A DNA stretch of 64,000 nt. It comes from Pseudohaliea rubra DSM 19751. GTDB lineage: Bacteria > Pseudomonadota > Gammaproteobacteria > Pseudomonadales > Halieaceae. This document shows, piece after piece, positions 6,552-19,798 of the stretch (its first letter is position 1; every line of letters starts with the position of its first letter). Below the pieces are notes generated by a model that was not told where the DNA came from, searched no databases, and worked only from the letters and a program-made list of their open reading frames with translations. The DNA lies in assembly GCF_000764025.1 (NCBI RefSeq), contig NZ_KN234745.1:124001-188000 (forward strand), given 5' to 3'. The position numbers and the translations under genes were made by a program.

Positions 6552-6707
6552 GCGTCCGGCTCCCGCTCGCGATAGCGTTGGCTTTGTTAACCGCCAGCCT
6601 GTAAGAGGAGCGCAGCTGCCTATCCTTCGACCTTTGCGCCGCTCCCGCGCTTGTCCACCGGGGGCCGCTATGCGACGCTTGAGGCACCGACTGCGCCGGA
6701 CGGCACA

Positions 6708-8357
6708 ATGAAAATAAGAATACTGGTCGCGACCTTCGGGCTGCTGGTGATCGCCGGCGTGCTTGGCTGGACTTTCCGGATAGACCTGCTCCTGGCGATC
6801 GCGGAGCGGCGGGCCGCAGCCGATGAGGTCGCGCCCGCCCAGTCCGTAGCCTGGCAGAAGGCTGCGCCCCAGCCCCGCGACGGCCGGCCCAATATCGTGT
6901 TCATCCTCCTCGATGATCTCGGGATCAACGACTTGTCCACCTTCGGCGGTGGCGTGGCCGGTGGTCGGGTCCAGACGCCACATATCGACCGGCTCGCCGC
7001 CGAGGGCGCGGTATTCCGCCAGGCCTATGCCGGCACCGCGAGTTGCGCGCCTTCCCGCGCCATGCTGCTCACGGGCCGCTACCCCACGCGCACGGGCTTT
7101 GAGTTCACCCCCACGCCCGATGGCATGGGACGCGCCGTGAGCATGATCGCCAACAGCACAGACAGCGGCCTGCCGCCGGTGCGCTACGACCGGGAGGCCG
7201 CGGACCGGCAGCCCCCCTACGAGGCCATGGGGCTGCCGTCGTCGGAGGTCACCCTCGCCGAGGTCCTGAAGGCAAGCGGCTACTACACGGCGCACATCGG
7301 CAAGTGGCACCTGGGACGAAGCACCGGTTCGCGCCCGACGGATCAGGGCTTCGACGACAGCCTGCTTATGGCCAGCGGCCTGTTCCTGCCCGAAGACCAC
7401 CCCGATGTGGTCAATGCCCGACTGCCCTTCGACCCCGTCGATCGTTTCCTCTGGGCGCGTATGCGCTTTGCCGCCAGCTTCAACAACGGTCCCTGGTTCG
7501 AGCCGGGTGGTTACCTGACGGACTACTGGACCGACGAGGCCGTGAGCATCATTCGCGAGCACCGCGACGAACCGTTCTTTCTCTATCTGGCGCACTGGGG
7601 CGTGCATACGCCGCTGCAGGCGACGCGCAGCGACTACGACGCGGTCGGCACTATCCAGCCGCACCGGCTGCGCGTATATGCAGCCATGGTCCGCGCGCTC
7701 GATCGCAGTGTCGGCCGCATCCTCGCGGTCCTTGATGAAGAAGGGCTCGCCGAGGACACGCTGGTTGTTCTCTCCAGTGATAACGGCGGTGCCGGCTACC
7801 TGGGACTCGCGGAGATCAACGCGCCCTACCGGGGCTGGAAGCTGACCCTCTACGAGGGCGGGCTGCGCGTGCCCCTGTTCCTGCGCTGGCCGGGCAGGGT
7901 GCCCGCCGGTACGGTGGTGGAGCCGCCTGTAGCACACATTGACCTCCTGCCAACGCTGGCTGCTGCCGCAGGGGCGCCGCTGCCCACCGACCGGATTATC
8001 GATGGCCGCGACCTGCTGCCGATCGCCTCGGGCGCAAGCACCGAGGAGCCCCACGAGGCGCTTTACTGGCACAGCGCTCACTACGCCGCGGTGCGGCGCG
8101 GGGACTGGAAGCTGCAGCGCAGTGAGCGGCCGGCTTTCCGGCGTCTCTACGATCTGGTGACGGATCCTACCGAGGAGGTGAACGTTGCCGCCGACCACCC
8201 GCTTATCACCAGCGAACTCGACGCACTCCTCGACGCGCACCTTGCCGACCGGCGGCCACCGCTTTATCTGCCGACGCTCGAGGCCCCGGTGGCGCTCGAC
8301 AAGACCCTCGCTGAACCGGTGAGTGCAGCCGACAGCATCGTGTACTGGCCGAACTGA
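6708..8357 (+). CDS. Formylglycine-dependent sulfatase (membrane-anchored N-terminus)
   Basis: A 549-residue alkaline-phosphatase-superfamily sulfatase that hydrolyses sulfate esters. The start MKIRILV leads into one hydrophobic segment (LVATFGLLVIAGVLGWTF), a signal anchor or signal peptide. Motifs: the metal-binding IVFILLDDLGIND; the formylglycine signature CAPSRAMLLTGRYPTRTG, with Cys113 as the residue to be oxidised; a second signature HIGKWHLG; and the late metal site SSDNGG. Activity requires an external formylglycine-generating enzyme, which is not in this window. Three bases separate it from the following MBL-fold gene, so the two are co-transcribed. The substrate (aryl or carbohydrate sulfate) cannot be read from sequence. 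Confidence 0.92.
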   Translation: MKIRILVATFGLLVIAGVLGWTFRIDLLLAIAERRAAADEVAPAQSVAWQKAAPQPRDGRPNIVFILLDDLGINDLSTFGGGVAGGRVQTPHIDRLAAEGAVFRQAYAGTASCAPSRAMLLTGRYPTRTGFEFTPTPDGMGRAVSMIANSTDSGLPPVRYDREAADRQPPYEAMGLPSSEVTLAEVLKASGYYTAHIGKWHLGRSTGSRPTDQGFDDSLLMASGLFLPEDHPDVVNARLPFDPVDRFLWARMRFAASFNNGPWFEPGGYLTDYWTDEAVSIIREHRDEPFFLYLAHWGVHTPLQATRSDYDAVGTIQPHRLRVYAAMVRALDRSVGRILAVLDEEGLAEDTLVVLSSDNGGAGYLGLAEINAPYRGWKLTLYEGGLRVPLFLRWPGRVPAGTVVEPPVAHIDLLPTLAAAAGAPLPTDRIIDGRDLLPIASGASTEEPHEALYWHSAHYAAVRRGDWKLQRSERPAFRRLYDLVTDPTEEVNVAADHPLITSELDALLDAHLADRRPPLYLPTLEAPVALDKTLAEPVSAADSIVYWPN

Positions 8358-8360
8358 CCC

Positions 8361-9452
8361 GTGCGCCCGCAACGCCGCCTCCTGCTCGCTGCTGTCCTCC
8401 TGCTGGTCCTGGCGCTGGTGCTGTTGCTCGCCTTGCGCCGGCCGATCGGTGAGGCGCTCTTTGAACGCGCCGCGTCAGCGCGGATCGCCGCTGCGGCCGC
8501 GAGCACCGCGCCGGTCGACGGCTTACAGGTTTATCTGTGCGGCAGCGGCTCACCGATGCCCGACGCGGCGCGCGCCGGTCCCTGTGTGGGCATCCTCGCC
8601 GGCCCACATCGGCTGGTTATTGACGCTGGCGCCGGCGGGCCGCGCAAGCTGGCGGCCATGGGCTTTCCCGCCGGGGGACTCGACCAGGTCTTTCTTACGC
8701 ACCTGCATTCGGACCACATCGACAGCCTCGGCGAGCTGGTGCTGGTGGACTGGGTCGGCGGAGAGGGAAGGGCGGCGCCGCTGCCGGTTGCCGGCCCTCC
8801 GGGGGTTGAGGCCGTCGTTGATGGTTTCAACCTGGCGTACCGCGCAGACCGTGACTACCGTCTCGCTCATCACGGCGAGGCCATAGCCAATCCGGAGGGC
8901 TACGGCGCGGAGGCCCGGGTGCTTACACCGCCGGGGTCGCGCGCGGGCGCTGTGCCCGTTTACCAGCGCGGGGAGCTCACGGTCAGTGTTTTCCTGGTAG
9001 ACCACGCTCCAGTGGCACCGGCCTTCGGCTACCGGGTGACGTACCGGGACCGTATTGCGGTGATCAGCGGCGATACGGTCTACAGCGATAATCTCGTGCG
9101 CGCTGCCCGTGGCGCGGACCTGCTCCTCCACGAGGCCCTCGCGCCGGCGATGGTGAAAACGCTGCGCGACGCACTATCCCGGGAGGGCATCGGCAACACC
9201 GCGCGCATCATGCACGACATCCTCGACTACCACGCCTCACCGTCGGACGCCGCCCGCGCCGCGGCGGCTGCGGGGGTAGACGCGCTCGTGCTCTACCACC
9301 TGGTACCGCCGCTGCCCGGGGGCTATCTTTCCCACGCCTTCCTCGGCGATGCGCGGGCCCACTTCGATGGGCCGCTACGGGTAGCTGTTGATGGCCTGCG
9401 CGTGACGCTGCCCGCAAGCAGCGATGCTATCGTATTCGAGGAGTTACTTTGA
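8361..9452 (+). CDS. MBL-fold metallo-hydrolase, membrane-anchored
   Basis: A 363-residue protein starting at GTG, 3 bases after the sulfatase stop. A strong N-terminal hydrophobic segment (LLLAAVLLLVLALVLLLAL) anchors or exports it. The metallo-beta-lactamase zinc motif is FLTHLHSDHIDSLGE, with later ligands in VISGDTVYSD and the C-terminal LYHLVPP. The layout (HxHxDH plus the long insert before GDT) resembles RNase Z-like and AtsA-type MBL arylsulfatases. Export and pairing with a sulfatase favour a periplasmic ester or sulfate-ester hydrolase over tRNA processing; this is inference. The stop overlaps the convergent second sulfatase gene by 9 bases. Confidence 0.85.
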   Translation: MRPQRRLLLAAVLLLVLALVLLLALRRPIGEALFERAASARIAAAAASTAPVDGLQVYLCGSGSPMPDAARAGPCVGILAGPHRLVIDAGAGGPRKLAAMGFPAGGLDQVFLTHLHSDHIDSLGELVLVDWVGGEGRAAPLPVAGPPGVEAVVDGFNLAYRADRDYRLAHHGEAIANPEGYGAEARVLTPPGSRAGAVPVYQRGELTVSVFLVDHAPVAPAFGYRVTYRDRIAVISGDTVYSDNLVRAARGADLLLHEALAPAMVKTLRDALSREGIGNTARIMHDILDYHASPSDAARAAAAAGVDALVLYHLVPPLPGGYLSHAFLGDARAHFDGPLRVAVDGLRVTLPASSDAIVFEELL

Positions 9453-11243
9453 GCGGCGCTGGCGGCCCAGGAGCACAGCGGCTGCGATAAGCAGTAGCGC
9501 CGCGACCGCGCCCAACCGGGGGGCGTAGGCGGCGAGCATGCGTTCCGTCGCGTTGCGGTCGAGCTGCATCGGCGAGGAATAGCCCGCGGGCATGGGCTGT
9601 ACCCCGACGTGACCCGCGTAGCGGGCATAGGCCGCGGCGAGTTCGTCACGCAGCGCCGGGCGGGCCCCGGCGAGGTCGCGCGTTTCCCCCGGGTCCTTCG
9701 CCAGGTCATAGAGCTGCCAGTGTCCGTCGCCCCAGGGCGGCAGGTTGCGAACCAGCTTCCAGCGTCCGCGATAAAGCGCGGCGTTCCCCGCCACTTCGAG
9801 CCCAACGGCCTCGTCGAGACCGTACACGCGGTCTGCTTCACCGCGGAGAACCGGCAGCAGGCTGCGTCCGTCCATAGCCGACAGGGCCTCATCGAGCCCC
9901 GCAAGCTCAAGCAGGGTCGGCGCGATGTCCGTCGCCAGCGTGAAGGCTTCTGTGACTTTCGGCGCGGTCTCGCTGGCGCCGGCAATCACGAGGGGCACGC
10001 GCACGCCACCCTCCGCGGTGGTGAATTTGTAGCGATCCAGGGGCGAGGCCGCTGCGGCGGCCCAGCCGGGCCCGATAAACGCATAGCTGTCCGGCCCGCC
10101 GATCTTCGCCGCGTCGAGGCGATACCCCCGGGAGGCCAGCCAAAGGCGCATGCGCCAGTCGTCGTCGGCCCGGGTCGGCTCCGGGCCGTTGTCCGAAACA
10201 ATCACAAACACGGTGTTTTCCGCGAGGTCGCGCTGGCGCAGGGCGTCGATGAAGCGGCCCAGCTCATGGTCCATGGCCGTCATCATCCCGGCGTTTGCTG
10301 CCATGCGCGCAGCCCACAGCTGCTGCTCCTCGTCCGTAAGGCCGTCCCAGGCGGGCACGGCCGGGGGGAGGGGCGCCGTGGGCGCATCGCGGGGGATAAG
10401 GCCTGCGGCCCGGGCGCGCTCGGCCCGCTCGGCCCGCAGTACCTCCCAGCCCCGCCGATAGCGTTCGCGATAGGGATCGATGAAGGCAGCCGGCGCCTGC
10501 ACCGGGATATGGATAGCCTGGAAGGCCAGGTAAGCGAAGAAGGGCTGCTCCGCCGGCGTAGCATCGAGGTAATCGACCATCTGGTTGACGATGAAACGCG
10601 AGGAGTAGAAGTCTGGCGGCAGCGTCGCCGGCTCGCCGTCCTCAAACCAGGGCGCGCTGTCGTAGTAGGGCATGTAAGGCGCCTGCGTCCAGTTGTCCGC
10701 GCCGGAGGCGTCGAGGGCAAAGGACCGGTCGAAGCCATGGGCGTCGGGCAGGTCGCCGTCGCCGTGGCCCAGATGCCACTTGCCGGTCATCAACGTACGG
10801 TAGCCGGCGCCGCGCAGCTGCGTGGCCACGGTCTGCACCCCGTCGGCCAGGCGCATGCCGTAGCCCGGGGCGTCAGCCTGCTCCGGCGGTAGAATCTCGG
10901 GGATGGATGCTATCCCGGTGCGGTGACTGTCGAGGCCGGTCAGGAGCATGGCCCGGGAAGGCGCACAGAGGGGCGAGGTCCGGTATTGGGTGAAGCGCGT
11001 GCCGCGGCGCGCCAGGGCGTCGATGGTCGGGGTGGCGATCTCGCCGCCGTAGGCCCCGACGTCCAGGAGGCCGGCGTCGTCGATCACGACCAGGACCAGA
11101 TTGGGGGGCTGCGCCACCGCCGGCATTAGCGGGAGAAGCAGCAGGGCCAGGAGGGCGCCCCGGGCGCGCAGGCAGCGCGCCCGCAGGGCACTCGCGGGAA
11201 AACAGCGCGGCCGCCGGGGGCGGGCCGCGCTGCAGCATGACAT
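9444..11243 (-). CDS. Formylglycine-dependent sulfatase with C-terminal membrane anchor
   Basis: A 599-residue sulfatase from the start MSCCSAARP; the frame is open 89 codons further upstream but that stretch is antisense to the SDR gene. The signal peptide core is ALLALLLLPLMPAVA. Motifs: LVLVVIDDAGLLDVG (metal site), CAPSRAMLLTGLDSHRTG (Cys93 is the formylglycine precursor), MTGKWHLGHGDGDLPDAHGFD, and VIVSDNGPEP. The C-terminus has a hydrophobic helix (LGAVAALLLIAAAVLLG) followed by RQRRSK, a typical stop-transfer anchor, so the enzyme is probably tethered to the inner membrane facing the periplasm. The start lies 8 bases after the SDR stop, suggesting an operon. It differs in architecture from the other sulfatase 1 kb away. 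Confidence 0.92.
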   Translation of the reverse strand: MSCCSAARPRRPRCFPASALRARCLRARGALLALLLLPLMPAVAQPPNLVLVVIDDAGLLDVGAYGGEIATPTIDALARRGTRFTQYRTSPLCAPSRAMLLTGLDSHRTGIASIPEILPPEQADAPGYGMRLADGVQTVATQLRGAGYRTLMTGKWHLGHGDGDLPDAHGFDRSFALDASGADNWTQAPYMPYYDSAPWFEDGEPATLPPDFYSSRFIVNQMVDYLDATPAEQPFFAYLAFQAIHIPVQAPAAFIDPYRERYRRGWEVLRAERAERARAAGLIPRDAPTAPLPPAVPAWDGLTDEEQQLWAARMAANAGMMTAMDHELGRFIDALRQRDLAENTVFVIVSDNGPEPTRADDDWRMRLWLASRGYRLDAAKIGGPDSYAFIGPGWAAAAASPLDRYKFTTAEGGVRVPLVIAGASETAPKVTEAFTLATDIAPTLLELAGLDEALSAMDGRSLLPVLRGEADRVYGLDEAVGLEVAGNAALYRGRWKLVRNLPPWGDGHWQLYDLAKDPGETRDLAGARPALRDELAAAYARYAGHVGVQPMPAGYSSPMQLDRNATERMLAAYAPRLGAVAALLLIAAAVLLGRQRRSK

Positions 11244-11251
11244 GGCGACCG

Positions 11252-12016
11252 CTAGGCCGAGTAGCCGCCGTCCACGGGGACGGACTGGCCGCTGATGTAA
11301 CCGGCATTCTCGGAGGCGAGGAACGCAACGGTGTCGAACAGTTCCTCCGGGGCGCCGGGGCGTCCGAGGGCGACCTGCCTGGTCCACTGGTCCAGGATGC
11401 CGCCGGGGGGCGAGTCGATTTCCTGGGACAGGCCGATGGCAATAAGGCCGACGGCGACGCAGTTCGCGCGGATGTTGTTCGGGCCTTCTTCCCGGGCTAT
11501 GGCCGTGCACAGGTGCTGCACGCCGGCCTTGGGGATGGAGGACAGGCCGTCTGTGGCGATGTAGCGGGGGATCGCCGCCGTCGTCAACGCCGTGATGGAA
11601 CCGCCGCCGCCCTCACGCAGATGCGGCACCACGGCCTTCAGCACATGGTAGAAACCTTTAACGTCGGCATCGAGGGTGTCGTAGAACACCTGCGGCTCTG
11701 CATCCATAATCGGCAGGATGTGCAGAAAGGGGCCGGTGGCAAAGATCACCGAGTGAATGCGTCCGAACTTCCCTTTCACATCACTGGCGAAGGCCTCGAC
11801 GGCAGGCAGGTCGAGCAGATCAACGCTGCCGATATGACCCTGCTGCCCGGCGTCCTCGATAGCCTTGAGGTTCTCCTCGGCGGCGTCGCGGTTCTTGTGG
11901 TAGGTAAAGGCCACGTTGGTCCCGCTCTGGGCCAGCAGACGGACAACACCACCGCCGAGGCCGCCGGAACCGCCGAATACCAGCGCCGCGCCTTCGGGGA
12001 AACGATACACACTCAT
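11252..12016 (-). CDS. SDR-family oxidoreductase lacking the catalytic tyrosine
   Basis: A 254-residue Rossmann-fold protein. The dinucleotide-binding loop is VFGGSGGLGGGVVRLLAQSG and the family C-terminus GYISGQSVPVDGGYS is intact. The active-site lysine is recognisable as Lys163 in SSIPKAGV, but the position four residues before it is Ser159 rather than Tyr, and the usual catalytic serine is Thr146. The FabI-type Tyr-x6-Lys alternative is also absent (Asp156). It may bind NAD(P) without classical reductase chemistry, or use Tyr152. AGGAG stands 6 bases before the ATG. The gene precedes the second sulfatase, and the MDR gene lies upstream on the same strand. Confidence 0.85.
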   Translation of the reverse strand: MSVYRFPEGAALVFGGSGGLGGGVVRLLAQSGTNVAFTYHKNRDAAEENLKAIEDAGQQGHIGSVDLLDLPAVEAFASDVKGKFGRIHSVIFATGPFLHILPIMDAEPQVFYDTLDADVKGFYHVLKAVVPHLREGGGGSITALTTAAIPRYIATDGLSSIPKAGVQHLCTAIAREEGPNNIRANCVAVGLIAIGLSQEIDSPPGGILDQWTRQVALGRPGAPEELFDTVAFLASENAGYISGQSVPVDGGYSA

Positions 12017-13854: not shown

Positions 13855-15204
13855 TCACCAGGCGAGCTTTCGATAGAGACTGCGCACGCTGATGCCTGCC
13901 GCCTGCGCTGCCTGCGTTTTACTGCCGCCGAAGTGGTCGAGAAGCCAAAGCAGGTAGCGCTGCTCTGCGCCCCGCAGGCTCAGATCTTCCGGGATAGCAT
14001 CGACGGCTGACGCCGCCTCCGCGGGGCGCCCGGCCCGATCGAACTGCGGACGCGAGGGCGTGAGAGCGCGCTCGATAACGTCCCGGTCAAGCACGTTGGT
14101 ATTGGCCAGCAGCATGGCCCGGGCAAGGATGTTGCGCAGTTCGCGGACATTTCCCGGAAAGCGGTATTCCCGGAGCCGGTCCGCAGCGGATTGGGTCAGA
14201 TGATGGTGTCTCCCCTCCCCCAGTTCCTCCAGAACGCGCCGGGCAATACCCTGCAGATCCTCGGGACGCTCCCGGAGCGGCGGCACGCGAATGGGGAAGA
14301 CATTGATGCGGTAGTAAAGGTCCTCCCGGAACAGGCCCTGCTCTACCAGCTGCCCGAGATTTTTATGGGTGGCGCAGACGAGGCGGAAGTCCGAGTGACG
14401 CACCTCGGTACTCCCCACCTGGCGATAAGTGCCTGTCTCGATCAATCGCAGGAGCTTGACCTGCAGCGATAGCGGCACGTCGCCGATTTCGTCAAGGAAC
14501 AGGGTGCCGCCGTTTGCCGCCTCCACCAGGCCGGGCTTGTGGAAGTTGGCGCCGGTGAAGGCCCCGCGGACGTGACCGAAAAGCTCGCTTTCGAACAGCG
14601 TCTCGGTCAGGCCGGCGCACTCCAGGGTGACCATGTGACGCTTTGCGCGGCGACTGTGCCGGTGAATGCCGTGGGCCGCCAGCTCCTTACCGGCGCCGGA
14701 TTCACCGGACAGGAGGACCGCAACATCGGAGGGCGCGACACGGGCTATGAGCCCCATCATCTCATTGAAGGCGGGTGAGCTTCCGGTCATGGCCAGCTCG
14801 GGCTCCCTTGCGCTTCCCGTGCGCAGAGGCCTGAGCAGCTCGATGAAGAACTCAAGCTCACCGGCCTCGTCAAAGACCGGGAGCATCTCGACGTCGACGT
14901 GCTCCTCACCCCGTGGCGTCTGATGGATATGCAGTACGCGCTCGCGGTTGCCCGAGGCCGTGGCGGCCCGCAGCGGACAGGTTTCACCAGCCTCGTCGCA
15001 GGGACGATCGTAGCCGTGGGAGACCGCGTAGCACCGGGGGTGCTCGTCGCTCTGGTCAAGTTCCCCAAACTTGTCCCGATAAAGATCGTTTGTGGCGAGG
15101 ATCTCGTAGTCCCGGCTGACAAGGATTGCCGGACTATCATAGCTGTCGAGCATCCGCGCGACGGTGGGATGAGTATCGCGGGCAATAAGGTTCATGGCTG
15201 CCAT
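13855..15204 (-). CDS. fisR: Sigma54-dependent sulfane-sulfur-responsive activator FisR
   Basis: A 449-residue enhancer-binding protein. The N-terminal sensor domain (about residues 15-120, PAS-like) carries cysteines 58, 69 and 76 in [15 protein letters not shown] and GETCPLRA. The 11/7 spacing equals that of the three redox cysteines described for FisR of Cupriavidus, which activates sulfide-oxidation genes when sulfane sulfur rises. The AAA+ domain has Walker A GESGAGKE, the sigma54-contact loop GAFTGA and Walker [12 protein letters not shown]. The C-terminus is a Fis-type helix-turn-helix ([22 protein letters not shown]). An in-frame ATG at 15195 is an alternative start. The gene is divergent from the sulfide operon, and the dyad operator sits 17 bases upstream of its start, so autoregulation is likely. 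Confidence 0.93.
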
Positions 15205-15220
15205 TTTTGTCAGAGCTTCC

Positions 15221-15243
15221 TGCCAATAGTGTCATAATTGGCA
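15221..15243. promoter_or_regulatory. Dyad operator, candidate FisR upstream activating site
   Basis: TGCCAAT and ATTGGCA form perfect 7-bp inverted arms around a 9-base spacer. The dyad lies 17 bases above the fisR start and 113 bases above the -24 element of the divergent sigma54 promoter, the normal range for enhancer-binding-protein sites. Assignment to FisR is inferred from position. Confidence 0.65.
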
Positions 15244-15355
15244 CGGTGCGGCGAGGGCTGGCGATCTCTCAGCCCCCCGGGTTTACGCCGCTTTATCTGT
15301 AAAGTTTCGTTAATTCAGGCTCTTGGCAGGCACCGAGGCAGAACCGGCGGACAAC

Positions 15356-15371
15356 TGGCACGCCTTGTGCT
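15356..15371 (+). promoter_or_regulatory. Sigma54 (-24/-12) promoter of the sulfide-oxidation operon
   Basis: TGGCACGCCTTGTGCT matches the RpoN consensus TGGCACG-N4-TTGCW except for one base in the -12 half (GTGC for TTGC). The invariant GG and GC are separated by exactly 10 bases. Transcription should start near 15382, leaving a leader of about 70 bases before the dioxygenase ATG. The neighbouring sigma54 activator gene supports the call. Confidence 0.85.
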
Positions 15372-15451: not shown

Positions 15452-16378
15452 ATGGAAACAGCCCAAGCCGCAAACAGTGCCCACAAGGCCCTGGTAACGC
15501 CCTTCTTCGACGAGGCGACGAACACACTCAGCTATGTCGTCCGGGACCCGGGCAGCCAGGCCTGCGCCGTAGTCGACTCCGTGCTGGACCTGGACTATGC
15601 ATCAGGGACCATCAGCTACACGAGTGCGGACCAGATCATCAGCTTCATCCGCGACAACACGCTCGAGCTTGAATGGATTCTCGAAACCCATGTCCACGCG
15701 GACCACCTCTCCGCCGCCCCGTACCTGCAACAGGAACTCGGCGGCAGGATCGCCATCGGCGACCATATCACCACCGTGCAGGAGACCTTCGGAGAAGTGT
15801 TTTCAACCGGCCAAGGTTTTGCCCGCGACGGCTCACAGTTCGATGTGCTCCTTTGCGAAGGAGACGCAATCAATATCGGCGGCCTTGCCGGCTACGCCAT
15901 GCACACCCCGGGACATACGCCTGCCTGCATGACCTATGTACTCGGTGACGCTATTTTTGTCGGCGATACGCTGTTCATGCCCGACTATGGCACGGCCCGC
16001 TGTGACTTTCCCGGCGGCGATGCAGCCACCCTCTTCCGGTCAATCCAGCGCATCCTTTCCCTGCCGGCGGACATGCGCCTCTTTGTCTGCCATGATTACC
16101 TGCCGAACGGTCGAGAGCTTGAGTTCGAGACCACCGTGGGCGCCGAGCGGCAGGACAATATTCACGTGCATGAGGGCATCTCTGAAGAGGCCTTCGTGGC
16201 CATGCGAGAGAAGCGCGACGCCACCCTGGGCATGCCGACGCTGATCCTGCCCTCGCTACAGGTCAATATGCGTGCCGGCCATATGCCACCGGCCGAGGGC
16301 GAACGCTTTTTCCTCAAGCTGCCGCTCAATGCCTTTGGCGGCCCCGATCTCGGCCGCCTCGCAGCGAAGGGAGAGTAA
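15452..16378 (+). CDS. pdo: Persulfide dioxygenase, Blh-type MBL-fold protein
   Basis: A 308-residue MBL-fold enzyme. The start METAQAAN lies about 70 bases after the predicted sigma54 start site; a longer open frame upstream runs through the promoter and is rejected. Iron and active-site motifs are ETHVHADHLSAAPYLQ, HTPGHTPACMTYVLGDA, GDTLFMPDYGTARCDFPGG and the late VCHDYLP histidine. This pattern belongs to ETHE1/Blh persulfide dioxygenases, which oxidise glutathione persulfide to sulfite and glutathione. It is the first gene of the FisR-controlled operon and is followed after 4 bases by the SQR fusion, whose product (persulfide) is its substrate. Confidence 0.93.
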   Translation: METAQAANSAHKALVTPFFDEATNTLSYVVRDPGSQACAVVDSVLDLDYASGTISYTSADQIISFIRDNTLELEWILETHVHADHLSAAPYLQQELGGRIAIGDHITTVQETFGEVFSTGQGFARDGSQFDVLLCEGDAINIGGLAGYAMHTPGHTPACMTYVLGDAIFVGDTLFMPDYGTARCDFPGGDAATLFRSIQRILSLPADMRLFVCHDYLPNGRELEFETTVGAERQDNIHVHEGISEEAFVAMREKRDATLGMPTLILPSLQVNMRAGHMPPAEGERFFLKLPLNAFGGPDLGRLAAKGE

Positions 16379-16382
16379 GGTC

Positions 16383-18080
16383 ATGAGCGTCGATATCATA
16401 AGAGTCAGTGACGAATACGCCGTCTCCGCCCAGATCAGCGCTGCCGACATCGAGGCAATTGTCGCCTCCGGGGCGAAGTCGCTGCTCTGCAGCCGACCCG
16501 ATGGCGAGGCCAATGACCAGCCGACCTTTGCGGAGCTTGAGGCCGTCGCCCGGGAAGCGGGCCTCGAGGTCGCCCACGTGCCGGTTATCTCCGGCAAGGT
16601 AAACGAAAAGAACGTGGACGATTTTCTGGCGGTGGTAGAACGGCTGGAAAAGCCCATCCACGCCTACTGTCGCACGGGCACGCGCTCGATGACCCTGTGG
16701 ACCCTTTACCAGCGCCGCCTCGGCGTGCCGGACGAGGAACTGCTCACGCGCGCCAGCGCCTGCGGTTACGATCTGTCGGAAGTCCTGGCAGCAAAGCAGA
16801 AAACCCGCGCCGCCGCAGGTCCGGGGCACCGCCGGGATCACTACGATATTGTTATCGTCGGCGCCGGTGCAGCGGGGATCGCGGTGGCTTCGAGCCTCAT
16901 GGCGCGCACTCAGGATCTGGCCATCGCCATCATCGATCCTGCCGCCGTCCACTATTATCAGCCCGGCTGGACCATGGTGGGCGCTGGCGTATTCACCCAG
17001 CAGGAAACGGTCAAGACCACAGCATCTCTTATCCCCCGCGGTGTCACCTGGATCCAGGCGGCCGTCGGCGACCTGGAGCCCGATGAGAACCGGGTGCTTC
17101 TGGAGGACGCGCGGCCGGTGTACTACGACCGGCTCATCGTCGCCCCGGGTATCAAGCTCGACTGGAACGGCATCGAGGGGCTGGTGGACACCCTCGGTGA
17201 CAACGGCGTGACCTCCAACTACCGCTTCGACCTGGCACCCTACACCTGGGAACTGGTGAGCCAACTGCGCTCGGGCCGTGCGGTCTTCACGCAACCGCCG
17301 ATGCCGATCAAGTGCGCCGGTGCGCCACAGAAAGCCGTGTACATGTCTGCAGACCACTGGAAGCGCAGCGGCTCCCTGGGGGCTATCGACATCGCCTTCT
17401 ACAACGCCGGCCAGGTGCTCTTCGGCGTCAAGGAATATGTTCCGGCGCTCATGGCCTATATGGAGGGCTACGGCGTTGACCTCAACTTCGGCAAGCGCCT
17501 GGTGCGCATCGATGGCCCGGGCCAGACGGCCTGGTTCGAGACGCAGAACGCCGACGGCGGGATCATTGAGGAAAGCACCGCTTTCGACATGATCCATGTG
17601 GTGCCGCCTCAGACAGCTCCGGATTTCGTCCGCGGCAGCCCCCTGGCCGACGAGGCCGGTTGGATCGATGTCGACCAGAACACGCTGCAGCACCGGCGCT
17701 ACGCGAATGTCTGGGGCCTCGGTGATGCCATGAACGCGCCGAATGCCAAGACGGCGGCTGCGGCACGCATGCAGGCGCCGATCGTCGCCAACAACCTGCT
17801 GCAGGATCTCGGCAAGGCCCGGGGTGTGGCCCACTACAACGGCTATGGCTCCTGCCCGCTCACCGTCGAACGCGGCAAGATCGTGCTCGCCGAGTTCGGT
17901 TACGGAGGCAAGCTGCTGCCGAGCTTCCCGCGCTGGCTCATCAACGGCGAAAAGCCTTCGCGACTGGCCTGGATCCTCAAGGAAAAAATCCTGCCGCCGG
18001 TCTACTGGAAGGCCATGCTGCGGGGCCGTGAGTGGATGGTTGAGCCCGAGCGAAGCAAGCCCGGCGCCAACGCTGCATGA
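16383..18080 (+). CDS. sqr: DUF442 phosphatase-like domain fused to type II sulfide:quinone oxidoreductase
   Basis: A 565-residue two-domain protein. Residues 1-110 match the DUF442 (beta-lactamase-hydrolase-like phosphatase) domain, with the active loop HAYCRTGTRSMTLWTLY; this Cys-x4-Arg loop could carry a persulfide. After a linker, the SQR domain begins with the FAD motif DIVIVGAGAAGIAVASSL and contains the type II signature HYYQPGWTMVGAG. Both redox cysteines known from human SQOR are present, in IKCAGAPQKAVY and GSCPLTVERGK. SQR oxidises sulfide to sulfane sulfur and passes two electrons to quinone at the inner membrane. The last 4 bases overlap the SulP start (ATGA), so the genes are translationally coupled. 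Confidence 0.93.
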   Translation: MSVDIIRVSDEYAVSAQISAADIEAIVASGAKSLLCSRPDGEANDQPTFAELEAVAREAGLEVAHVPVISGKVNEKNVDDFLAVVERLEKPIHAYCRTGTRSMTLWTLYQRRLGVPDEELLTRASACGYDLSEVLAAKQKTRAAAGPGHRRDHYDIVIVGAGAAGIAVASSLMARTQDLAIAIIDPAAVHYYQPGWTMVGAGVFTQQETVKTTASLIPRGVTWIQAAVGDLEPDENRVLLEDARPVYYDRLIVAPGIKLDWNGIEGLVDTLGDNGVTSNYRFDLAPYTWELVSQLRSGRAVFTQPPMPIKCAGAPQKAVYMSADHWKRSGSLGAIDIAFYNAGQVLFGVKEYVPALMAYMEGYGVDLNFGKRLVRIDGPGQTAWFETQNADGGIIEESTAFDMIHVVPPQTAPDFVRGSPLADEAGWIDVDQNTLQHRRYANVWGLGDAMNAPNAKTAAAARMQAPIVANNLLQDLGKARGVAHYNGYGSCPLTVERGKIVLAEFGYGGKLLPSFPRWLINGEKPSRLAWILKEKILPPVYWKAMLRGREWMVEPERSKPGANAA

Positions 18081-19798
18081 ACGGGGGGCCGGCCCGCTTT
18101 CTGCCACCCCTCCAGTGGCTGCGGGGTTACGGTGGCGCGACCCTGGCGAGCGACCTGCTGGCGGCGGTGATCGTAACGATCATGCTGATTCCGCAATCTC
18201 TCGCCTACGCGCTCCTCGCCGGACTGCCGCCGGAGATGGGCCTCTATGCGAGCATCCTGCCACTGATCGCCTACGCGCTTTTCGGCACCAGTCGCACGCT
18301 GTCCGTGGGGCCAGTGGCCGTGGCCTCGCTCATGACCGCCACGGCAGTGGGCAAGGTGGCTGAGGCGGGCACCGCCGATTACGCCAGTGCTGCGGTGGCC
18401 ATGGCCCTGATGTCCGGCCTCATGCTCGCCGCCATGGGTCTGCTGCGCTTCGGGGCCCTTGCCAACCTGCTGTCACACCCGGTGGTGTCGGGATTCATAA
18501 CCGCATCGGGGATCATTATCGCCCTGTCGCAGCTGCGCCATATCCTCGGCATCGAGGCACACGGCGAGACACTCCTGGACCTGGGGCACTCGCTGCTGGC
18601 ACACGTCGCAGCCTTCAACAGCCTCACGCTCGCCACGGGCATGGCCGCCCTCCTCTTCCTGTTCTGGGTGCGCCGGGGCCTGGCCCCGCTCCTTACCCGC
18701 GCCGGCCTCCCCGCGGCTACTGCGGGTATGGTGGCAAAGGCCGGTCCGGTGCTGATCATCGTGCTGACCACGCTGGCCAGCTATCTCGGTGGTTTCGAGG
18801 CGCAGGACGTAGCCGTCGTCGGCACGGTACCCAGCGGCCTCCCCGCCTTCAGCACGCCCGTCTTCGATGCCGAGCTGTGGTCCGAGCTCGCCGTGTCCGC
18901 CCTGCTGGTAAGCATCATCGGTTTCGTGGAATCCGTATCCGTGGGTCGGACGCTCGCCGCCAAGCGGCGCCAGACCATCGACGCAAACCAGGAGCTGCTT
19001 GCTCTGGGTGCCGCGAATATAGCCTCCGGGGTCTCGAGCGGCTTCCCGGTCACGGGGGGCTTCTCCCGGTCCGTGGTGAACTTCGATGCCGGGGCAGAGA
19101 CCCAGCTGGCCAGCGTATTCACCGCCGCGGGCATCGCGCTGGCAGCACTTTTTCTGACGCCGGTGCTTTATTTTCTACCGCAGGCCACACTCGCGGCGAC
19201 GATCATCGTTGCGGTGACTTCACTCATTGACTGGGGAACGGTTCGGCTGGCCTGGCGTTACTCGCGCTCGGACTTCATCGCGGTGACGGCGACGATCGTG
19301 GTCACCCTCGCCCTCGGCGTGGAGCTCGGCGTGCTCGCCGGTATCATCGCCTCCATCGCCCTGCACCTGCACAAGACCTCACGGCCGCACATCGCCGTGG
19401 TCGGCACCGTACCGGGCACCGAGCACTATCGGAATGTCGAGCGCCACGAGGTAGTGACCTACCCCGGAATCGTGTCCATCCGCGTCGATGAGAGCCTTTA
19501 CTTCGTCAACGCCGCCTACCTCGAGAGTGCAATCTACGCCATTGTGGCGGCGCGCCCGGAGGTGCAGCATGTTGTGCTGCAGTGTGCCGCGGTGAATGAA
19601 ATCGACCTCTCGGCTCTGGAGGCGCTGGAGAACATCGACCACCGTCTGCGTGAACGCGGTATGCAGCTTCACCTATCTGAGGTAAAAGGGCCAGTGATGG
19701 ACGGCCTGAAGCGCACGGACTTTCTCGAACACCTGAGCGGTGACGTTTTCCTCAGCCACCACCAGGCTGTGGAAGCACTGCGCGACCGCCAGGACTGA
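18077..19798 (+). CDS. SulP-family inorganic anion transporter with STAS domain
   Basis: A 573-residue permease. The hydrophobic SulP domain spans residues 1 to about 430, with the family patterns IPQSLAYALLAGLPPEMGLYAS, FGTSRTLSVGPVAVASLMT and GFPVTGGFSRSVVNFDAGA. A cytoplasmic STAS domain (about 445-570) follows, containing YFVNAAYLESAIYAIV and VVLQCAAVNEIDLSALEALE. SulP proteins move sulfate, bicarbonate or related anions. As the last gene of the sulfide-oxidation operon, with a 4-base overlap to sqr, it is probably an exporter or exchanger for the sulfite or sulfate formed. No sulfite dehydrogenase is present in the window, so the anion exported may be sulfite; this is inference. Confidence 0.92.
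   Translation: MNGGPARFLPPLQWLRGYGGATLASDLLAAVIVTIMLIPQSLAYALLAGLPPEMGLYASILPLIAYALFGTSRTLSVGPVAVASLMTATAVGKVAEAGTADYASAAVAMALMSGLMLAAMGLLRFGALANLLSHPVVSGFITASGIIIALSQLRHILGIEAHGETLLDLGHSLLAHVAAFNSLTLATGMAALLFLFWVRRGLAPLLTRAGLPAATAGMVAKAGPVLIIVLTTLASYLGGFEAQDVAVVGTVPSGLPAFSTPVFDAELWSELAVSALLVSIIGFVESVSVGRTLAAKRRQTIDANQELLALGAANIASGVSSGFPVTGGFSRSVVNFDAGAETQLASVFTAAGIALAALFLTPVLYFLPQATLAATIIVAVTSLIDWGTVRLAWRYSRSDFIAVTATIVVTLALGVELGVLAGIIASIALHLHKTSRPHIAVVGTVPGTEHYRNVERHEVVTYPGIVSIRVDESLYFVNAAYLESAIYAIVAARPEVQHVVLQCAAVNEIDLSALEALENIDHRLRERGMQLHLSEVKGPVMDGLKRTDFLEHLSGDVFLSHHQAVEALRDRQD

Follow-up and report, generated by a model that had tools for sequence, protein, structure and literature searches.

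The fisR-pdo locus and its predicted sigma-54 promoter

In the window, by which is meant the whole 64-kb stretch of DNA analysed, fisR, on the minus strand, and pdo face each other across an intervening gap of ~250 bases (Table 1), and the adjacency of fisR to pdo and sqr is an arrangement shared by many orthologs. The Pfam models PF00158 and PF02954 score above cut-off in FisR, GAFTGA is present, and three of its cysteines, C58, C69 and C76, are identical in all 73 aligned sequences that cover them. According to reviews, three conserved cysteines enable Cupriavidus FisR to sense sulfane sulfur (PMC9774590). The start of the SulP gene overlaps the stop of the DUF442-SQR gene by 4 bp, and the transporter gene is probably in the same operon as pdo and the fusion gene. 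Sigma-54 itself is encoded by a single rpoN in the genome (one PF04552 match, E 1.9e-69). An N-terminal DUF442 (TIGR01244) sulfur-transferase domain fused to SQR is also seen in several relatives. Elsewhere near the sulfide cluster are two sulfatase/alkaline-phosphatase-like genes, at 6651-8357 and 9444-11510 of the window, translations of which were judged by eye. Known RNA elements were sought in the fisR-pdo intergenic region and none was found there.

Table 1. Genes and candidate control elements at the fisR-pdo locus (window coordinates)
Feature	Position	Strand	Basis or remark
fisR (PAS-type sensor, AAA+ sigma-54 activator domain, Fis-type HTH)	13855-15204	-	Pfam and alignment
FisR site 1, TGCCATTTTTGTCA	15199-15212	.	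Predicted; paired-site comparison; overlaps the fisR ATG (15204-15202)
FisR site 2, TGCCAATAGTGTCA	15221-15234	.	Predicted; paired-site comparison; left part of the earlier dyad
fisR -10-like hexamer position in orthologs	15226-15231	-	CACTAT in the window, TGA before it
Overlapping third TGNCA-N4-TGNCA, TGTCATAATTGGCA	15230-15243	.	Made by the right arm of the dyad; role uncertain
fisR -35 position	15249-15254	-	Window reads TCGCCG, weak; ortholog -35 profile
-24/-12 promoter, TGGCACGCCTTGTGCT	15356-15371	+	Pattern match and congener/ortholog conservation; site 2 starts 135 bp away
pdo operon transcription start, predicted	15382	+	Computed from the -12 GC
pdo, MBL-fold persulfide dioxygenase	15452-16378	+	Domain search
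DUF442 sulfur-transferase / sulfide:quinone oxidoreductase fusion	16383-18080	+	Domain search
SulP-type transporter with STAS domain	18077-19798	+	Domain search

The promoter element ahead of pdo is one mismatch from TGGCACG-N4-TTGCW, having GTGC in place of TTGC at -12, and its -24 GG and -12 GC have the standard separation, with the same T-to-G change as the single departure from TGGCAC-N5-TTGC. Four -24/-12-like matches were found in the window against 2.2 expected, which alone is within chance. The call is well supported by comparison with a congener (L086), in which 15 of the 16 bases (94%) are the same beside a spacer of 46% identity. The GTGCT at -12 recurs in L086, L092 and L101, and orthologs have a -24/-12 at a comparable position. 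For the two predicted FisR sites, identity to the congener is 79% (site 1) and 93% (site 2), so that sites and promoter are conserved islands in otherwise diverged intergenic DNA. It is this conservation that makes the place significant; the dyad described below and the -24/-12 element, each taken singly, are within chance. The proposal of the earlier, sequence-only reading that FisR and RpoN control pdo, from an enhancer by fisR and a -24/-12 before pdo, gains support from these comparisons, and the gene identities hold.

Tandem half-site pairs and the earlier dyad

The operator had been proposed to be a dyad, TGCCAAT-N9-ATTGGCA. Its letters and position are right: TGCCAATAGTGTCATAATTGGCA at 15221-15243 has no second exact copy either in the window or elsewhere in the 3.2-Mb genome, and a distance of 17 bases separates its start from the fisR ATG, whose A is at 15204. 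However, perfect inverted repeats with 7-bp arms and spacers of 0-12 number 144 in the window, 18 of them with a spacer of 9, and because such repeats are so abundant the dyad alone is not beyond chance. As an operator it appears to be a mis-parse in which site 2 is joined to an extra TGGCA half-site, the conserved unit being a pair of TGNCA-N4-TGNCA sites. The other member of the pair, site 1, was overlooked in that reading and is 22 bp from site 2, start to start. TGNCA-N4-TGNCA occurs exactly three times in the 64 kb, all at the fisR-pdo gap (15199, 15221 and 15230).

FisR relatives for comparison were drawn from public genomes together with 58 related genomes, the closest named relatives being Haliea/Halieaceae-type gammaproteobacteria. 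Among 39 fisR-pdo gaps N4 is the strongest half-site spacing, with 38 TGNCA-N4-TGNCA occurrences distributed over 26 gaps against 0.29 in shuffles. Two tandem sites, with one mismatch at most in each and start-to-start distances of 17-26 allowed, are present in 40 of 63 upstream regions of FisR relatives, where shuffles average 0.07 loci; the contributing loci span many genera of both beta- and gammaproteobacteria, with relatedness among some of them (seven Burkholderia, five Marinomonas) causing the shuffle statistics to overstate independence. Of the distances allowed, only 20 (n=7), 21 (n=14), 22 (n=17) and 23 (n=2) were seen. Loci of paralogous activators, 158 kb in all, have 3 single sites and 0 pairs. 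The 11-residue recognition helix of the window's FisR is common to most near orthologs carrying the pair. Many Pseudomonas and Burkholderia FisR relatives have SERTLYRR in place of that helix, and several relatives whose HTH helix differs, reading SERTLYR (many Pseudomonas are examples), are without the site pair. From this comparison the predicted conserved operator is tandem TGNCA-N4-TGNCA, and not TGCCAAT-N9-ATTGGCA.

That the dyad is nonetheless the operator itself, a single unit with far-apart half-sites, is very improbable. Its arms are perfect over 7 bp and the congener keeps the outer TGCCA and TGGCA, but there the inner ATTGGCA reads GCTGGCA and conservation ends at genus level, quite apart from the frequency of like repeats in the window. 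It also fares poorly in the use suggested for it, as a query for FisR targets: with one mismatch at most it has matches in 38 of the 58 related genomes, yet misses the congener and, among the matches listed, hits no fisR locus except its own, its three near-matches in its own genome all being inside open frames.

A different possibility is that the extra half-site is real and that FisR in this genus loads more protein via 15230-15243, giving a three-site, or three-half-site, enhancer. The number of sites would then be comparable to that of NorR, for which three enhancer sites are reported. All 5 bases of the third TGNCA (TGGCA, 15239-15243) are kept in both genus members within poorly conserved surroundings. 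However, it is absent from the other orthologs, so that two genomes only carry it, and the third site uses the left arm of site 2, from which it follows that both could not be filled alike simultaneously. We regard such an enhancer, and with it the NorR-like number of sites, as decidedly unlikely. Least credible of all is that the elements are due to chance or are the sites of another regulator; the chance-level frequency of dyad and promoter, singly considered, would be in keeping with it, but the tandem pairs follow FisR orthologs rather than paralogs, travel with the pdo operon and are unique in the genome.

Occurrence of the pair in related genomes

Pattern searches find the exact site pair only once in its own 3.2-Mb genome. 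At two mismatches or fewer and spacings of 21 and 22, there are two further matches elsewhere, both inside open frames, and the overlapping third site of the fisR locus is also returned. Strict pairs occur in 8 of the 58 relatives, one in each, and all 8 are accompanied by a -24/-12 at 91-135 bp; 6 are at fisR and the two others, in genomes G003 and G016, are not beside it. More broadly, in 32 loci with a pair the -24/-12-like element is 88-135 bp from site 2, with 15 of the 32 at 117-123, and the distance from site 2 to -24 is 134-135 in the window, the congener and two other loci. That these distances are helically phased is suggestive only, p being ~0.015 in a crude test with author-chosen bins. 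The spacer between sites and promoter has no good IHF site, its best matches having 2 mismatches.

In G003 (L127:3831-3988) the pair, with a -24/-12 122 bp away, is at the head of cydA-cydB-pdo-DUF442/SQR-sulP-osmC, with fisR last. Judged from this order, the predicted control element has moved with the pdo operon where fisR is not divergent, and the cluster would tie cytochrome bd oxidase to FisR. The pair in G016 (L128:4009-4290) is syntenic with a second pair in G023 (L163:2904-3359), both having a promoter at 120-121 bp. The one in G023 has one mismatch and precedes a gene for a 76-aa DUF2970 protein. In G016 no DUF2970 frame follows, and a terminator-like hairpin is found ~95-110 bases beyond the predicted start; a short RNA ending at the hairpin is possible. 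The remaining pairs with -24/-12 that are recovered among the 58 relatives at one mismatch or fewer are all at fisR loci. As a query for FisR targets the predicted pair of TGNCA-N4-TGNCA sites, ideally with a -24/-12 about 90-135 bp away, is better than the dyad.

Two loci have other arrangements. In Pseudoalteromonas xiamenensis (NZ_CP099918.1, L165) the divergent partners of a FisR-like gene are cydP and cydB rather than pdo, and a single TGCCACTTATGACA site is near the start of that FisR-like gene. The genus Cupriavidus, in which FisR was reportedly first described, is represented by the fisR-pdo gap of Cupriavidus metallidurans (NC_007974.2, L164), where a TGCCA-rich array, TGCCAAGTTCTGCCAACACTGCCAAGTTGGCA, is present and the repeats include TGCCAACACTGCCA.

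Proposed activation, possible self-limitation and known systems

In the explanation of the locus that we consider highly probable, FisR is a sigma-54 activator and three-cysteine sulfane sulfur sensor that would bind two tandem 14-bp sites, two helical turns apart. On build-up of sulfide or persulfide, we infer, the assembled AAA+ ring would contact RNA polymerase-sigma-54 at the -24/-12 via DNA looping, and the ensuing promoter opening would permit transcription of pdo, the DUF442-SQR fusion gene and probably sulP. These sites also extend across the start codon and leader of fisR, and in many orthologs across what is likely its sigma-70 -10 region, so that bound FisR would be expected to limit its own synthesis. 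Points that tell against this explanation are the GTGC at -12, the distance from site 2 to -24, which at 135 bp falls outside the frequent 117-123 class, the lack of a good IHF site in the spacer, the weakness of the fisR sigma-70 promoter in the window and the congener, and the FisR relatives that are without the pair.

The proposed limit on FisR synthesis calls for separate consideration. Read in the direction of fisR, every TGNCA-N4-TGNCA has TGN-CANNNN at its centre, like an extended -10. Being built into the site pattern, such a -10-like match is no proof, and the -35 provides an independent test. In 28 orthologs -35-likeness peaks at a spacer of 16-18 from the centre of site 2 (e.g. TTGCCA, TTGACT, TTTACA); the mean at the peak is 1.93 bits against a profile mean of -0.39, and 0 of 2000 randomly shifted sets match it, with the weights being the author's general-knowledge values and kinship of the orthologs inflating the statistic. 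A -35-like box at fixed spacing in orthologs is supporting evidence for predicted fisR autorepression. In the window itself no sigma-70 consensus match for a fisR promoter was found, and the -35 position is poor both there (TCGCCG) and in the congener (TCGCGG).

A rival reading is that the sites serve activation only and that fisR is not regulated through their overlapping its start region. The lack of an identifiable fisR promoter in this genus is in its favor, as is the greater distance of the sites from the fisR start in Burkholderia and Pseudomonas relatives, but near orthologs have the sites at an almost constant place across the start and leader of fisR, and the fixed spacing of the -35-like box also argues against it. 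We consider it rather unlikely. The suggestion in the sequence-only reading that one place both activates the operon and represses fisR is plausible, given site 1 on the start codon and the ortholog -35 box; the location stands, and the dyad as the site does not. A broader reading is that the FisR operator is the core of the fisR promoter too, with TGN-CANNNT inside the site serving as an extended -10 that FisR on site 2 would plug directly, forming a self-limiting local sulfide switch which relatives redeploy to cytochrome bd, a DUF2970 membrane protein and possibly a small RNA. We propose it tentatively, as quite possible if short of probable; its self-limiting, local aspect rests on a single paired target per genome being the rule.

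Control of pdo-sqr by FisR and sigma-54 was already known, and what is new is a better-defined predicted operator. The accessible open papers give no FisR binding site. The FisR-sigma54-pdo/sqr system of Cupriavidus pinatubonensis JMP134 is reportedly the one dealt with by Li et al. in 2017. The study of Acinetobacter baumannii FisR cites Li et al. 2017 for Cupriavidus FisR, reports experiments in which FisR activates pdo-sqr, with a sigma-54 promoter predicted there, and, on a term search of its text, gives no FisR binding site (Walsh et al. 2020, PMC7315123). A divergent fisR beside pdo and sqr is common to A. baumannii and the window, and a PAS/AAA+/HTH-type activator with a predicted sigma-54 promoter is common to these and Cupriavidus. 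A. baumannii FisR is reported to be without the cysteines, unlike the present FisR, which shares three conserved ones with that of Cupriavidus; the window's operon differs from both in carrying a DUF442-SQR fusion and SulP, and here comparison across loci gives a predicted operator, two TGNCA-N4-TGNCA sites in tandem.

Cytochrome bd oxidase is reported to be refractory to sulfide, and the highly specific paired-site query already leads from persulfide removal to that oxidase and to an unstudied membrane protein. With such a query FisR regulons may become readable in sequenced bacteria; a misleading dyad is corrected, and the idea of an activator that represses itself from the same place is made directly testable.

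For negative feedback of this type there are parallels among sigma-54 activators. The pspF gene is divergent from pspA, and PspF, which PspA holds in check, has no sensor domain, whereas FisR has its own sulfur-sensing domain. Negative self-regulation is reported for E. coli PspF (PMC7229158), as is proposed for FisR. In Desulfovibrio vulgaris DVU2106 sites overlap the sigma-70 promoter of its own gene to give a negative loop, and sigma-54 promoters, as of orp, are activated (PMC3897727). The overlap with the own promoter is as proposed here, where it is deduced from orthologs; the regulator and palindromes are different, and for DVU2106-orp IHF has been shown. Half-site letters similar to the present ones (GTCA/TGAC) are found in the GTCA-N6-TGAC motif of FlrA/FleQ-type sigma-54 activators, which has N6 rather than N4 and belongs to a flagellar regulon (PMC4641369).
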